Under the pieces are notes generated by a model that was not told the DNA's origin, searched no databases, and worked only from the letters and a program-made list of their open reading frames with translations. The translations under genes and the position numbers were made by a program. This document shows, in pieces, positions 11,613-51,189 of a stretch of DNA of 64,000 bases (within the stretch, counting starts at the first letter, position 1; each line of letters starts with the position of its first letter). The DNA comes from Anaeromyxobacter dehalogenans 2CP-1 (GTDB lineage Bacteria > Myxococcota > Myxococcia > Myxococcales > Anaeromyxobacteraceae): the NCBI RefSeq assembly GCF_000022145.1, contig NC_011891.1, positions 4,570,501 to 4,634,500 of the forward strand, given 5' to 3'.

Positions 11613-11824
11613 GGAACCAATCGAGACATCGCTGACAGTCGGGGTGAGGCGGGCGTAGAGCGGTGACGGAACCAGTCAGGACATCGCTGACAGTTCAGCG
11701 GCGAGCCTGGCGTCGAAACCAGTCGAGACATCGCTGACGGTTCGGGGTGAGGCGGGCGTCGAGCGGTGACGGAACCAATCAGGACATCGCTGACAGTTCA
11801 GCGGCGAGCCTGGCGTGGGTCGGT
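11613..11824. repeat. imperfect tandem array with GACATCGCTGACAG core
   Basis: Four copies of GGAACCArTCrrGACATCGC followed by TGACAGTTC begin at 11613, 11668, 11715 and 11771. They form two larger units of about 103 bp. Read on the minus strand the core starts TGTCAGCGATGTC, which from memory resembles the repeated terminal sequences of IS21-family elements. No transposase of that family is present, so this may be a decayed end or an unrelated intergenic repeat. Weaker copies may continue to about 11900. Confidence 0.65.
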
Positions 11825-43773: not shown

Positions 43774-44604
43774 GTGACCGCTCTCAGCCCTCCCTCGCCG
43801 GACCGCGCGCCCGCGCGCGCCTACCTCTCCCGCCCCGGCCCGTGGCTGGTGGCCCACCGCGGCGGCAGCGCGCTCGCCCCGGAGAACACGCTCGTCGCGT
43901 TCGACCGGGCGGTCGCCCTCGGCGCGGACGCGCTCGAGATCGACGTGCGCCGCACCGCCGACGGCGCGGTGGTGGTGTTCCACGACGACGACACCGCGCG
44001 CCTCACCGGCGTGCCGGGGACCATCGAGGCGCGGACGCTCGAGGAGGTGGGGCGGCTCGACGCGGCGTTCGGGTTCACGCCGGACGGGGGGGCGACGCGG
44101 CCGCTCCGTGGGAAGGGGGTGCGGGTGCCGACGCTGGCGGAGGTGCTGGCGCGGTATCCGGGGCTGCGGCTGAACATCGACGCGAAGCCGGACGAGGCCG
44201 CGCTGGCGGAGGCGCTGGCGCGGGAGATCCGGGCCGCGGGGGCGGAGGACCGCGTGTGCGTCGGGTCGTTCTTCGACGCGCAGGCGGAGCGGCTCGCGCC
44301 GCTGTTGCCCGGGTGCGCGCGGTACCTGCCGGAGCAGGCGGCGACGTGCCACGTGATGGCGGCGCTGTCGGGGCAGGCGGCGGAGGGGTGTCCATCCGGC
44401 TACGACGTCGCGGATCTGCCGCATCGGATGGGGGAGATCGAGGTGGTGTGCCCGAAGGTCGTCGAGCACTTCCACGGGCTGGGGATTCCGGTGCACGTGT
44501 GGACGGTGGACGATCCGGTCGAGATGGGGGAGCTGCTCGCGCTCGGGGTGGATGGGATCGTCACCGATCGGCCGGATCTGTTGGCGAGGGTGTTGGGGAG
44601 GTAG
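43774..44604 (+). CDS. glycerophosphodiester phosphodiesterase
   Basis: A 276-aa GDPD-family TIM barrel. Catalytic block LVAHRGGSALAPENTLVAF (His28, Arg29, Glu37), ALEIDVRRTADGAVVVFHDD, and a C-terminal PVHVWTVDDPVEM are all present. It hydrolyses glycerophosphodiesters to glycerol-3-phosphate. It starts at GTG. No signal peptide, so cytosolic. The second half of the gene switches to G-ending codons and runs into the G-rich intergenic stretch downstream. Confidence 0.92.
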   Translation: MTALSPPSPDRAPARAYLSRPGPWLVAHRGGSALAPENTLVAFDRAVALGADALEIDVRRTADGAVVVFHDDDTARLTGVPGTIEARTLEEVGRLDAAFGFTPDGGATRPLRGKGVRVPTLAEVLARYPGLRLNIDAKPDEAALAEALAREIRAAGAEDRVCVGSFFDAQAERLAPLLPGCARYLPEQAATCHVMAALSGQAAEGCPSGYDVADLPHRMGEIEVVCPKVVEHFHGLGIPVHVWTVDDPVEMGELLALGVDGIVTDRPDLLARVLGR

Positions 44605-44708
44605 CTCCCGGTAGATGGGCTGCGGGGCTGCTGGGTTGACCGGAAGAGGAGCTGGAAGTGGGCAGCGGGCCGGCGGGGCGGGCCTTGTTGGCCGCGAGCG
44701 GCGGCGCA

Positions 44709-44727
44709 GGATCGGCTTGCGAGAAGC
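44709..44727. repeat. 19-bp motif shared with the 11.5-kb region
   Basis: GGATCGGCTTGCGAGAAGC matches 11547-11565 with one mismatch. Both copies lie in G-rich non-coding DNA, about 50-65 bp before a tandem array, in the same orientation. The stretch 44605-44777 is otherwise G-rich with no gene. Confidence 0.5.
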
Positions 44728-44777
44728 CTGTGGGGCGTGGCGGGGCTGGCGGTCGGTGGCCGCGGTCGTGTGGTGCC

Positions 44778-44902
44778 GCTCATGGTGAGCCGCCGGAATT
44801 CCCCTCGCGGTGAGCCGCGGGAATTCCGCTCATGGTGGGCCACCCGAACTCCGCTCATGGTGAGCCGCTGGAGTTCCGCTCATGGTGAGCCCCGTCGAAC
44901 CA
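44778..44902. repeat. five-copy 25-bp tandem array
   Basis: Units begin at 44778, 44803, 44828, 44853 and 44878 with exact 25-bp spacing. The consensus is GCTCATGGTGAGCC followed by GCYGGAATTCC. Each contains the partial palindrome GCTCAtggTGAGC. The last unit ends CCCCGTCGAACC and runs into ATGAGCGAGGTCGAAC, which extends the symmetry. It lies 255 bp upstream of the HNH gene; 44903-45156 has no gene. Confidence 0.8.
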
Positions 44903-45156
44903 TGAGCGAGGTCGAACTCTCGGTGAGCGACCGCTTGCGGCCCAACGGGAACGCGCTCCTCACTTGACGCGCCATTCACTGTAAGGCGAACCCGCGGTCC
45001 TGGGCGCACGGAAACGCCGCCCAGAACGCACGGCCTCGTGCCTGCGCCTCGCGCCGTCGTTCCGAGCGCTTCTGCGACCCCTCCCTGCTCTTCTCGCGCG
45101 TGCGGGCTTCTGCGTGCGTCCGGCGAGGGCTCGGAAACCCGTGAGAGAGTGGTCGC

Positions 45157-46300
45157 ATGGACACTGCGCGTGAACTCTCGGATCGGCTCGCCGCCCTCCT
45201 TCGCCGTGAGCGCTCGGCGCTCGCAGAATTCCTGGTCGCGCTCGCGGGCTTCGACGCGCGGCGCGCGTGGGCGGAGCTGGGGTACGCCTCGCTATTCCAC
45301 TACCTGCACCGTGAGCTGGGGCTGTCGAAGGGCTCGGCGCAGTACCGCAAGGTCGCGGCGGAGCTCATCCAGGCGGTCCCGGCCATCGTCGAGCCGCTGC
45401 GGAACGGGCGGCTCTGCTTCACGACCGTCATCGAGGTGGCGCGGGTGGTCACGGCGGAGAACTGGGAGGCGGTGCTGCCGCGGTTCTACGGGCTGTCGCG
45501 GCATGAGGCGGCGAAGGTGGTCGCCGCATTGGCGCCGCATCCGGCGCCGCCGGTTCGAACGGTCCTCACGGCGGTGCGTGCGCCTGCTGGTTCAACTGTT
45601 GAACTGGCCACCCCTGCGGTGACCTCTGGTTCAACTGTTGAACTGGCCGCCACGGGGGTGACCGCTGGTTCAACTGTTAAACCGATGGTCCCGCGAGAGA
45701 CGTCTGGTTCAACTGTTGAACCACGGGGCCCTGCGATGACCTTGGTGGCCCTGGCGTCGTCTCCCCGTTCCACGGACCTCTCCCCGCTCACGGCGGACCG
45801 TCAGCGGCTCCACGTGACGGTAAGTGAATGTTTCGTGCGCAAGCTGGGGCGACTGAGGGATCTCCGCCCGGACCTCTCCGACGACGCGCTCCTCGAGGCG
45901 GCGGTGGATCTGCTGCTGGCGAAGGCTGAGAAGCGCGTCGGCGCGCTCACGGACCGGCCTCGGGGCGGCGTGCGTCCCGGTCAGGCCGATCGCGTCCCCG
46001 CCCACGTTCGCCGCGAGGTCTGGCGGCGGGATGGCGGGTGCTGCCAGTGGCGGTTGGCGAACGGGGAGCTCTGCGGCTCCACGCACGCGCTGCAGCTCGA
46101 CCACGTCGTTCCGCGGGCGCGGGGCGGCGAGTCCACCGCGGCCAACCTTCGCGTGCTCTGTGCGGCGCACAACCTCGAGGCGGCGCGGCTCGTGTTCGGG
46201 GACGCGTGGATGGGCAGGTACACCAAGGGCCGGCGCGATGGGGATCGGGCCGGCCCTGCGGTGGTTCGCTATCTGTCCGGCGATCCGCGGGACTTGGCGC

Positions 46301-46317
<17 letters not shown>
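45157..46317 (+). CDS. DUF222/HNH endonuclease with in-frame palindromic linker
   Basis: A 386-aa protein. Residues 1-125 resemble the DUF222 (13E12-type) domain (WAELGYASLFHYLHRELGLS, NGRLCFTTVIEVARVV). The C-terminus (about 275-355) is an HNH nuclease: VPAHVRREVWRRDGGCCQW, LQLDHVVPRARGG, NLRVLCAAHN. Between them a linker of four 13-residue repeats (GSTVELATPAVTS type) is encoded by palindromic DNA at 45589-45722. Such proteins are often selfish or mobile genes; the target is unknown. The end overlaps the convergent ABC-F gene by 17 bp. Confidence 0.85.
45589..45722. repeat. four 17-bp palindromes at 39-bp period inside the HNH gene
   Basis: GGTTCAACTGTTGAACC or one-base variants start at 45589, 45628, 45667 and 45706. 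Each is an 8-bp inverted repeat around one base, separated by 22-bp spacers that differ in sequence. The 39-bp period keeps the frame, encoding GSTVE at each palindrome. The palindromes are much lower in G+C than the surrounding gene. A shorter GTTCGAAC palindrome lies just upstream at 45553. Confidence 0.9.
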
Positions 46318-47902
<1,585 letters not shown>

Positions 47903-49385: not shown

Positions 49386-49434
49386 GGGCCCCGACCCCGG
49401 GGCCCCGACCCCGGGGGGCCCCGACCCAGAGTAA
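49386..49434. repeat. REP-like GGCCCCGACCC repeats, left side of RAYT locus
   Basis: Three tandem near-copies of GGGGCCCCGACCCC end in GGCCCCGACCCAGAGTAA (49417-49434). That 18-mer recurs at 49854-49871 and, as the exact inverse complement, at 51095-51112 and 51168-51185. Confidence 0.75.
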
Positions 49435-50290
49435 CGCGATTCGGCCGCCCGGTCCGTAGTTCGGCCCATCCGTGCGAGCGCGGCCCCAGTGTCTTCGGGC
49501 GTCTTCGCGGGGCACGAGAACTGCGACTCCGCACGGCGTGACCGCCCCGCGCCAGATCCTCCCGCACGCCACCTATCTCGTCACCCGCCGCTGTTCGCAG
49601 CGGCAGTTCCTGCTGCGGCCTTCCGAGTCCACGAACGCGATCGTGCTCTACGTCCTTGCCGTGGCAGCCCGGCGGTACGGGATCCTGATTCACGCGTTCT
49701 GCGCTCTCTCCAACCACATCCACCTCGTCGTCACCGACCCCGGCTCGCGCCTCCCCGCCTTCCAGCAGTACGTCGACGCGCTCGTCGCCAGGGCCGTCAA
49801 CGCTTCCCTCGGTCGGTGGGAGAGCTTCTGGGCCCCGAGCAGCTACAGTGCGGGGCCCCGACCCAGAGTAACGCGATTCGGCCGCCCGGTCCGTAGTTCG
49901 GCCCATCCGTGCGAGCGCGGCCCCAGTGTCTTCGGGCGTCTTCGCGGGGCACGAGAACTGCGACTCCGCACGGCGTGACCGCCCCGCGCCAGATCCTCCC
50001 GCACGCCACCTATCTCGTCACCCGCCGCTGTGCACAGCGACAGTTCCTGCTGCGGCCGTCGGAGTCCACGAACGCCATCGTGCTCTACGTCCTGGCCGTG
50101 GCGGCCCGGCGGTACGGGATCCTGATCCACGCGTTTTGCGCTCTCTCCAACCACATCCACCTCGTCGTCACCGACCCCGGGTCGCGCCTCCCTGCCTTCC
50201 AGCAGTACGTCGACGCGCTCGTCGCCAGGGCCGTCAACGCTTCCCTCGGTCGGTGGGAGAGCTTCTGGGCGCCGAGTAGCTACAGCGCCG
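49417..50290. repeat. 437-bp direct tandem duplication
   Basis: Sequence from 49417-49853 is repeated at 49854-50290 with an exact 437-bp offset. The first 120 bp are identical by eye; scattered substitutions occur later, for example around 49590 versus 50027. The unit covers the RAYT leader and about 105 codons of the gene, so the left copy is a 3'-truncated RAYT. Confidence 0.85.
49538..49852 (+). pseudogene. truncated RAYT transposase copy
   Basis: A GTG at 49538 begins the same protein as the intact RAYT at 49975, almost identical for about 105 residues through NHIHLVVTDPGS to WAPSSYSA. At 49853 the duplication junction replaces the rest; the frame runs into the second copy's leader and stops at 49978. 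The His motif is present but the helix with the probable catalytic tyrosine (TAYVLANPV) is missing, so it should be inactive. Confidence 0.85.
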
Positions 50291-50871: not shown

Positions 50872-51159
50872 GCCGACGCCACCCAGACACAGCGGAACCT
50901 GCGCGAGCGGTCGCCTGTGGCGCTACCGCAGGCGGCGGTGCGTCCGGATCGGCCCCGAGCACCAACCAAGGCCCGCTTCCCCGGCGCGATCGCGAGTTCC
51001 GAGTAGTCTTTGACCACGTTTCGGACTGCGCTGTCGCCCCGTACACACCGCGTTCGGCGGGCAGGGCACCGCGGCGGCGCCCTCACCTAGCCAATTACTC
51101 TGGGTCGGGGCCTCCCCACACCGCGTTCGGCGGGCAGGGCACCGCGGCGGCGCCCTCGC
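50872..51159. other. non-coding flank of the RAYT gene
   Basis: After the RAYT stop, about 170 bp show no gene or strong structure; they contain GAGTAGTC, with the GTAG tetranucleotide common at REP ends. From 51044 the 73-bp tandem repeat begins. Confidence 0.4.
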
Positions 51160-51189
51160 CTAGCCAATTACTCTGGGTCGGGGCCTCGC
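51044..51189. repeat. 73-bp tandem duplication carrying inverted REP ends
   Basis: Two copies start at 51044 and 51117 with 73-bp offset and differ by one base in the matched part. Each contains CACACCGCGTTCGGCGGGCA and TAGCCAATTACTCTGGGTCG followed by GGGCC. The embedded 18-mers (51095-51112, 51168-51185) are exact inverse complements of those left of the RAYT gene. Confidence 0.85.

Follow-up and report, generated by a model that had tools for sequence, protein, structure and literature searches.

Palindromes conserved as DNA within the genes of a multi-copy HNH family in Anaeromyxobacter, candidate recognition sites of the encoded proteins

The parS site resembles TTTC...GAAA, and there is a parS site inside the spo0J gene; no paper on the latter was found in the open-licence literature. 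Rickettsia palindromic elements are palindromic DNA read in frame inside genes, and they have spread through unrelated genes. For ParB and Noc, with their sites parS and NBS, a few residues of the helix-turn-helix region determine specificity, according to Jalal et al. (2020, PMC7383237). KorB of plasmid RK2 is another protein known together with its operators (structure 1r71). The homing endonuclease I-TevI is a nuclease that acts as its own repressor and binds an operator akin to its target, as described in a review (PMC2988022). In mycobacteria, REP13E12, HNH endonuclease and DUF222 are named together (PMC10589994), and for M. tuberculosis a preprint describes 87 events of gene conversion in REP13E12 repeat regions (PMC13061034).

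Here, we analysed a stretch of 64,000 nucleotides of Anaeromyxobacter dehalogenans 2CP-1 (the window), which holds an HNH-family gene with four palindromes in its coding sequence. The family is like the ParB and Noc of Jalal et al. in having palindromic sites and a predicted DNA-binding domain of similar kind. Unlike them, it shows no CTPase domain, an HNH nuclease follows the DNA-binding part, there are many copies and several site types per genome, and the sites are in the gene's own linker. It differs from KorB in being chromosomal, multi-copy and fused to HNH, with sites inside the coding sequence. With the mycobacterial DUF222-HNH genes and REP13E12 repeats, it shares its multi-copy nature; the match to DUF222 is weak here. 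Like I-TevI, as portrayed in that review, it would be a nuclease with self-repression through site binding, but the I-TevI operator is at a promoter, whereas here the site lies within the coding sequence and does not serve as a target for insertion. The in-frame palindromes are like those of Rickettsia, except that the window's palindrome was found only in HNH paralogues in its own genome. No report of in-gene sites of this kind was found in the open-licence literature, including the accessible parts of PMC10589994 and PMC12707154, nor was a role for multi-copy HNH genes of this sort found there.

The gene (45157..46317 of the window) lies on the forward strand, as do all the protein features given below. 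It is an intact open reading frame of 386 amino acids, assigned to a multi-copy family from the frame itself, paralogues in its own genome and PF01844. The HNH nuclease domain (residues 282-356; 46000..46224) scored 24.2 bits against Pfam PF01844, above the cut-off of 21.4, which bears out the earlier note's placement of the repeats within an HNH endonuclease gene. In 59 aligned family proteins, D315 was kept in 58, H316 and H338 in all 59 and N330 in 55, and C296, C306 and C335 were present in 59/59. An HNH nuclease is predicted from this profile score and these near-invariant residues.

The N-terminal helical domain (residues 1-127; 45157..45537) was modelled by AlphaFold2 with a pLDDT of 92-98 in blocks of ten over residues 1-120. 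The best structural matches of the model were ParB, Noc, Spo0J and KorB, several of them solved with their own DNA sites, and the domain is predicted to resemble the DNA-binding domains of ParB, Noc and KorB. The N-terminal CTPase domain of ParB proper is not seen, since the helical domain starts at the N-terminus of the model. A putative helix-turn-helix with its recognition helix (residues 46-73; 45292..45375) was placed from the model helices at residues 46-52 and 58-73 and from the fixed differences described below. A sequence search against solved structures gave nothing firm; its best matches were HNH proteins, with an E of 0.0044 at best. The DUF222-like N-terminal part claimed previously was found as a match to PF02720 that falls under the cut-off (20.6 vs 24.4 bits), and 12 of the 59 family proteins matched DUF222 at E up to 1 (best 2.1e-4). 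The linker (residues 131-216; 45547..45804) is predicted to be disordered, with a pLDDT of 32-59 in blocks of ten, and shows raised diversity. It is followed by a pre-HNH segment of two helices (residues 217-265; 45805..45951; helices at 224-236 and 242-265 in the AlphaFold2 model). By eye, this could be a ribbon-helix-helix; the Antitox_RHH profile matched weakly in 2/59 proteins (best E 0.054), and the strand is unformed in the monomer model. Upstream of the gene, an alignment of 13 upstream regions showed, by eye, blocks common to most of the 13 own-genome paralogues (44709..44955, forward strand). A 25-bp tandem repeat, CCGCTCATGGTGAGCCGCCGGAATT, is present in 4.6 copies at 44776-44891. 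The only Rfam hit over 44400-46500 was far under its gathering score (25.1 vs 197 bits).

Four near-identical palindromes start at 45589, 45628, 45667 and 45706, in frame and with a period of exactly 39 bp; they were located by sequence match, are given for neither strand in particular and have the 15-bp core GTTCAACTGTTGAAC. Copies 1 (45589..45605) and 2 (45628..45644) both read GGTTCAACTGTTGAACT and end in T, not C, at a position outside the core. Copy 3 (45667..45683), GGTTCAACTGTTAAACC, has a G to A change in one arm, which breaks the palindrome. Copy 4 (45706..45722), GGTTCAACTGTTGAACC, is the only exact instance of the 17-mer quoted in the earlier note. The array, the period, the frame and the differing spacers of that note were all seen again on re-examination, but its 17-mer is exact in a single copy, and three copies, not one, differ from it by one base. 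Tandem Repeats Finder recovered the same array with period 39 and units alike across the whole 39 bp (79% matches). With up to three mismatches allowed, the window gave eight strand matches vs 0.03 expected; they make up four places, all in the array. The repeats in the linker of the HNH gene are real. Elsewhere in the window, a 437-bp unit occurs as two tandem copies (49415-50285, 96% matches), and there is a 103-bp pair at 11615-11816 and a 73-bp pair at 51044-51187.

The genome of the window (a single contig of 5,029,329 bases) and those of relatives were searched for the palindrome. At up to three mismatches, all 12 places in the own genome fall in three paralogous HNH genes, four in the window gene, three in L011 and five in L012. 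L012 (G000:C1:2060151-2061256) is frame-disrupted near codon 50, and its first 53 codons match in another frame; its five palindrome units are still intact or one base off in the core. Across 41 genomes (the own genome and 40 relatives), the core with any centre base was found in five. All 23 copies in three genomes of the same genus sit in nine family genes, and two more distant genomes, G013 and G033, hold single exact cores outside family genes. Copy number, which the earlier note proposed to compare, does vary among paralogues and genomes, from 1 to 5 units in the nine genes. The family itself gave 19 matched stretches in the own genome (13 span most of the protein), 7 to 26 in each of eight other genomes of the genus under a stricter cut-off, and up to 35 in one genome with another query. 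By eye, homology among the 13 own paralogues breaks off sharply near codon 356, and their tails are unrelated.

To examine conservation at the DNA level, we took the 28 candidate units given by a script and dropped one that was out of frame, which left 27 units in nine genes. Across these units, the third positions of the codons GGT, TCA, ACT, GTT and GAA were changed at 2/135 and kept at 133/135, five amino-acid changes were seen, and the spacers varied at most positions. These codons are rare in the N domains of the family (GGT 41/431, TCA 6/568, ACT 13/293, GTT 26/603, GAA 44/820), and the full rare-codon set would arise by chance at about 1e-7 per unit. By this codon evidence, the palindromes are conserved as DNA and not as peptide alone. 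This is the opposite of the conserved protein with diverged DNA that the earlier note had named as the sign of a protein repeat. A GSTVE repeat under amino-acid selection only would account for the frame and for the Glu aligned with residue 188, which is nearly invariant in 59 proteins. Peptide selection alone is insufficient, however, because the rare synonymous third positions are kept while the spacers vary and the linker is predicted to be disordered. Other clades also encode different peptides, FRAPE, FHAHE, VHPDE or VQPVE, from related DNA half-sites. The pure protein repeat is contradicted on these grounds, and we regard it as extremely improbable. A synonymous re-sampling test of the palindromes was weak because GC-rich palindromes often arise by chance (p for the longest arm ranged between 0.0005 and 0.54 in 20 genes), and in its place we relied on the codon and helix tests. 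The linker has raised diversity, which dips at the motif in clades B, E6a and F6b but not clearly in clade A. No gene-conversion signal centred on the palindrome site was seen in diversity.

Other clades carry other palindromes, of which TTCGGGCGCCCGAA, TTCATGCGCATGAA and GTTCATCCGGATGAAC are perfect. The clade B palindrome, TTCGGGCGCCCGAA, is in the same linker as that of the window gene; clade C has TTCATGCGCATGAA and clade D has GTTCATCCGGATGAAC with a second site, ATTCACCCGGGTGAAC (GTTCACCCGGGTGAAC in genome G001). The linker of L015 holds both a B-type (24 bp) and a C-type (22 bp) site. In another genus, L186 has a perfect palindrome, GTTCAACCGGTTGAAC, in the same linker; it is one base longer and is therefore in another frame at its 5' end. 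The motifs of G006, a different species, are of the GTTCGTCAAGCGAAC and GTTCGCCGGCAGAAC types, with a less symmetric centre. Of 26 places matching one G006 pattern, which misses some forms such as that of L091, 25 fall within family genes or their remnants and the remaining one lies upstream of such a gene. The motif expression was unmatched in 10 of 13 G004 genes and in several distant relatives, and the three G004 genes that matched have an unsymmetric form. In the E6a clade of G006 (L088-L095), seven of eight genes have, by the motif expression, a GTTC...GAAC frame 290-295 bp upstream of the start; only the L088 copy is fully palindromic (GTTCGCCAGGCGAAC). In a further G006 clade, L102 and L105 show GTTCGACGTCCGAAC at -102. 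An inverted repeat, TCAC-N5-GTGA, recurs at about -240 upstream of clade A-C genes (e.g. L011, L013 and L018), and TCAC-N4-6-GTGA is found somewhere in 19 of 68 upstream regions examined. The linkers of L013, L016 and L018 have an in-frame REP-like repeat with a peptide of the type ESARSEPV; in L018 it is present twice, 27 bp apart.

The own genome also has exact B and C palindromes beyond the family genes. There are four such sites, three B and one C, spread over three loci. At L130 (1005-1060; G000:C1:4804407-4804448), B and C palindromes are 28 bp apart between two open reading frames, and the arms of the B site are extended to CGTTTC...GAAACG, as they are at some of the palindromes outside family genes. 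The other two loci are intergenic by eye. These sites may be further targets or remnants. In three genomes, a clade B palindrome adjoins, by eye, a tRNA-like sequence (L129:1020-1045, L140:1072-1097, L146:960-985); the fetched stretches of L129 and L146 contain no HNH match, and that of L140 gave weak local matches only.

The copies outside family genes and the REP-like repeat in clade B linkers would fit mobile palindromic elements inserted in frame into a tolerant linker. This was part of the earlier note's proposal, which likened the repeats to palindromic elements inserting in reading frames. In its own genome, the window's palindrome was found only within HNH genes; the units are alike over 39 bp, as in tandem duplication, and conservation of the B and C palindromes goes together with the helix. 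A genome-wide mobile palindrome was rejected for the window's palindrome from its 12/12 places in HNH paralogues, and insertion of mobile elements is a very improbable explanation.

Several predicted recognition helices pair with particular palindromes. KGSAQY pairs with GTTCAACTGTTGAAC, AGSAQL with TTCATGCGCATGAA, KGAAQN with GTTCA(T/C)CCGGATGAAC in two species, and AGAAQY with TTTCGGGCGCCCGAA, also in L121 of G008. The pairing is not one-to-one, as KGAAFY occurs with several motifs or none and L185 pairs KGAAFY with a clade D site. Much of the pairing in the main clades could be due to shared descent. Clades B and C were compared using 13 and 5 genes, respectively, over residues 1-127 and 217-355, with 154 variable positions. 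Only four fixed differences were found, R51H, G/R55K, A60S and Y63L, all in the helix-turn-helix; five more fixed columns past residue 355 are in the unrelated tails and were excluded. Eight of the 154 variable positions are within residues 46-73, a range picked after the result was seen, and all four fixed differences are there (hypergeometric 3e-6). Random relabelling of the genes gave 0 or 1 fixed differences in 3000/3000 draws, and the four persisted without L121, without L121 and L015, or without L020. L076, which has a C site and a truncated start and is outside the count, has a C-type helix, and no helix was found in L085. Five more distant clade pairs showed no excess of fixed differences in the helix.

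The C-half tree rejected the C-type genes as one clade (p-AU 0.0018), as did both halves together (0.024), but the N half without the helix did not (0.15). The 3' halves are mosaic between clades B and C. Codons 69-127, between the helix and the linker sites, have no fixed B/C difference. Linkage over about 300 bp stays a caveat to the coupling because C-type genes are not one clade elsewhere. An independent-pairs test gave 1 to 3 pairs on supported branches, all in the expected direction and too few for significance. Between clades B and C, these alignments indicate that the palindrome changes together with residues of the predicted helix-turn-helix.

This coupling bears on two other explanations. 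The array folds far better than shuffled sequences (z -7.0), which would suit palindromes acting as mRNA hairpins on translation or stability. Such folding is expected of any palindromic array, however, and the sites of clades A-D are symmetric through their central 4-5 bases, which a loop would not need, although the G006 motifs are not. The palindrome type also follows the predicted DNA-binding helix in clades B and C, and hairpins are very unlikely to be the explanation. A host regulator, rather than the HNH protein, might bind the palindromes, since helix and site are not strictly one-to-one and B/C palindromes are also found in a few positions beyond the family genes, including the one by the tRNA-like sequence that three genomes have in common. 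In clades B and C, though, site type tracks the helix of the gene that carries it, and we consider a host regulator improbable, if slightly less so than hairpins.

The gene is present at the window's locus in 3/9 genomes of the genus. In G008, it is missing and matches to both neighbours are 10 bp apart; in G003, G005 and G007, there is a gap of about 1 kb without an HNH match. In G004 and G006, the fetched flank, which lacked the neighbour on that side, has no HNH match. A homing endonuclease was rejected, as the palindromes lie within the gene and none of the six genus genomes that showed no HNH gene at the locus (G003-G008) has the core, so the target expected at an empty locus was not found.

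A different role for the nuclease would be that the palindromes are targets for cutting or nicking, with the HNH domain breaking family copies in mid-gene and repair from paralogues driving conversion and spread. The nearly invariant HNH residues, the mosaic 3' halves, the patchy presence at the locus with the 10-bp junction in G008 and the M. tuberculosis conversion events in the preprint described above are in keeping with it. Loss of a site would allow escape from cutting, yet the sites are strongly conserved, and linker diversity around the site is raised, not lowered. Cutting is the strongest of the competing explanations, though still an unlikely one. Self-control is preferred over it because the sites are conserved, whereas one would expect a target of cutting to disappear, and because seven of eight E6a genes have upstream copies.

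Under self-control, the conserved sites in the coding sequence would likely be bound by the ParB/KorB-like helix-turn-helix of their own gene's product, which would hold down the gene and its close copies; we give this reading about an even chance. A dimer of the encoded protein would bind the symmetric palindrome. Less certainly, the bound protein could block transcription through the gene, as a roadblock or operator, and the block could provide copy control proper to each clade. A change of site and helix might then found a new group free of control by resident copies, again with less certainty. The linker would be the cheapest place for such sites because the protein there is predicted to be unstructured. 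The earlier note's alternative suggestion, that a selfish nuclease carries sites for self-recognition, has what support sequence can give, in that the sites are confined to the family, are conserved as DNA, differ between clades and, for the two closest clades, are coupled to the helix. More tentatively, and with greater doubt than self-control itself, this could be a selfish nuclease family with an in-frame identity tag, in which protein and tag switch together to give mutually blind groups of copies, with two-tag genes like L015 as possible intermediates.

If true, these would be groups of mutually blind copies, comparable to plasmid incompatibility groups. Should each gene carry the site read by its own product, the specificities of many proteins could be taken from sequences together. 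The family would then be a natural library for working out how helix and site correspond in a ParB-like domain, and would allow tests of how selfish nucleases restrain or propagate themselves. The palindromes would also be an unusual DNA signal, one that is written in coding sequence and changes along with the part of the protein that reads it. A family of unknown function would gain a testable job if its proteins recognise their own genes.
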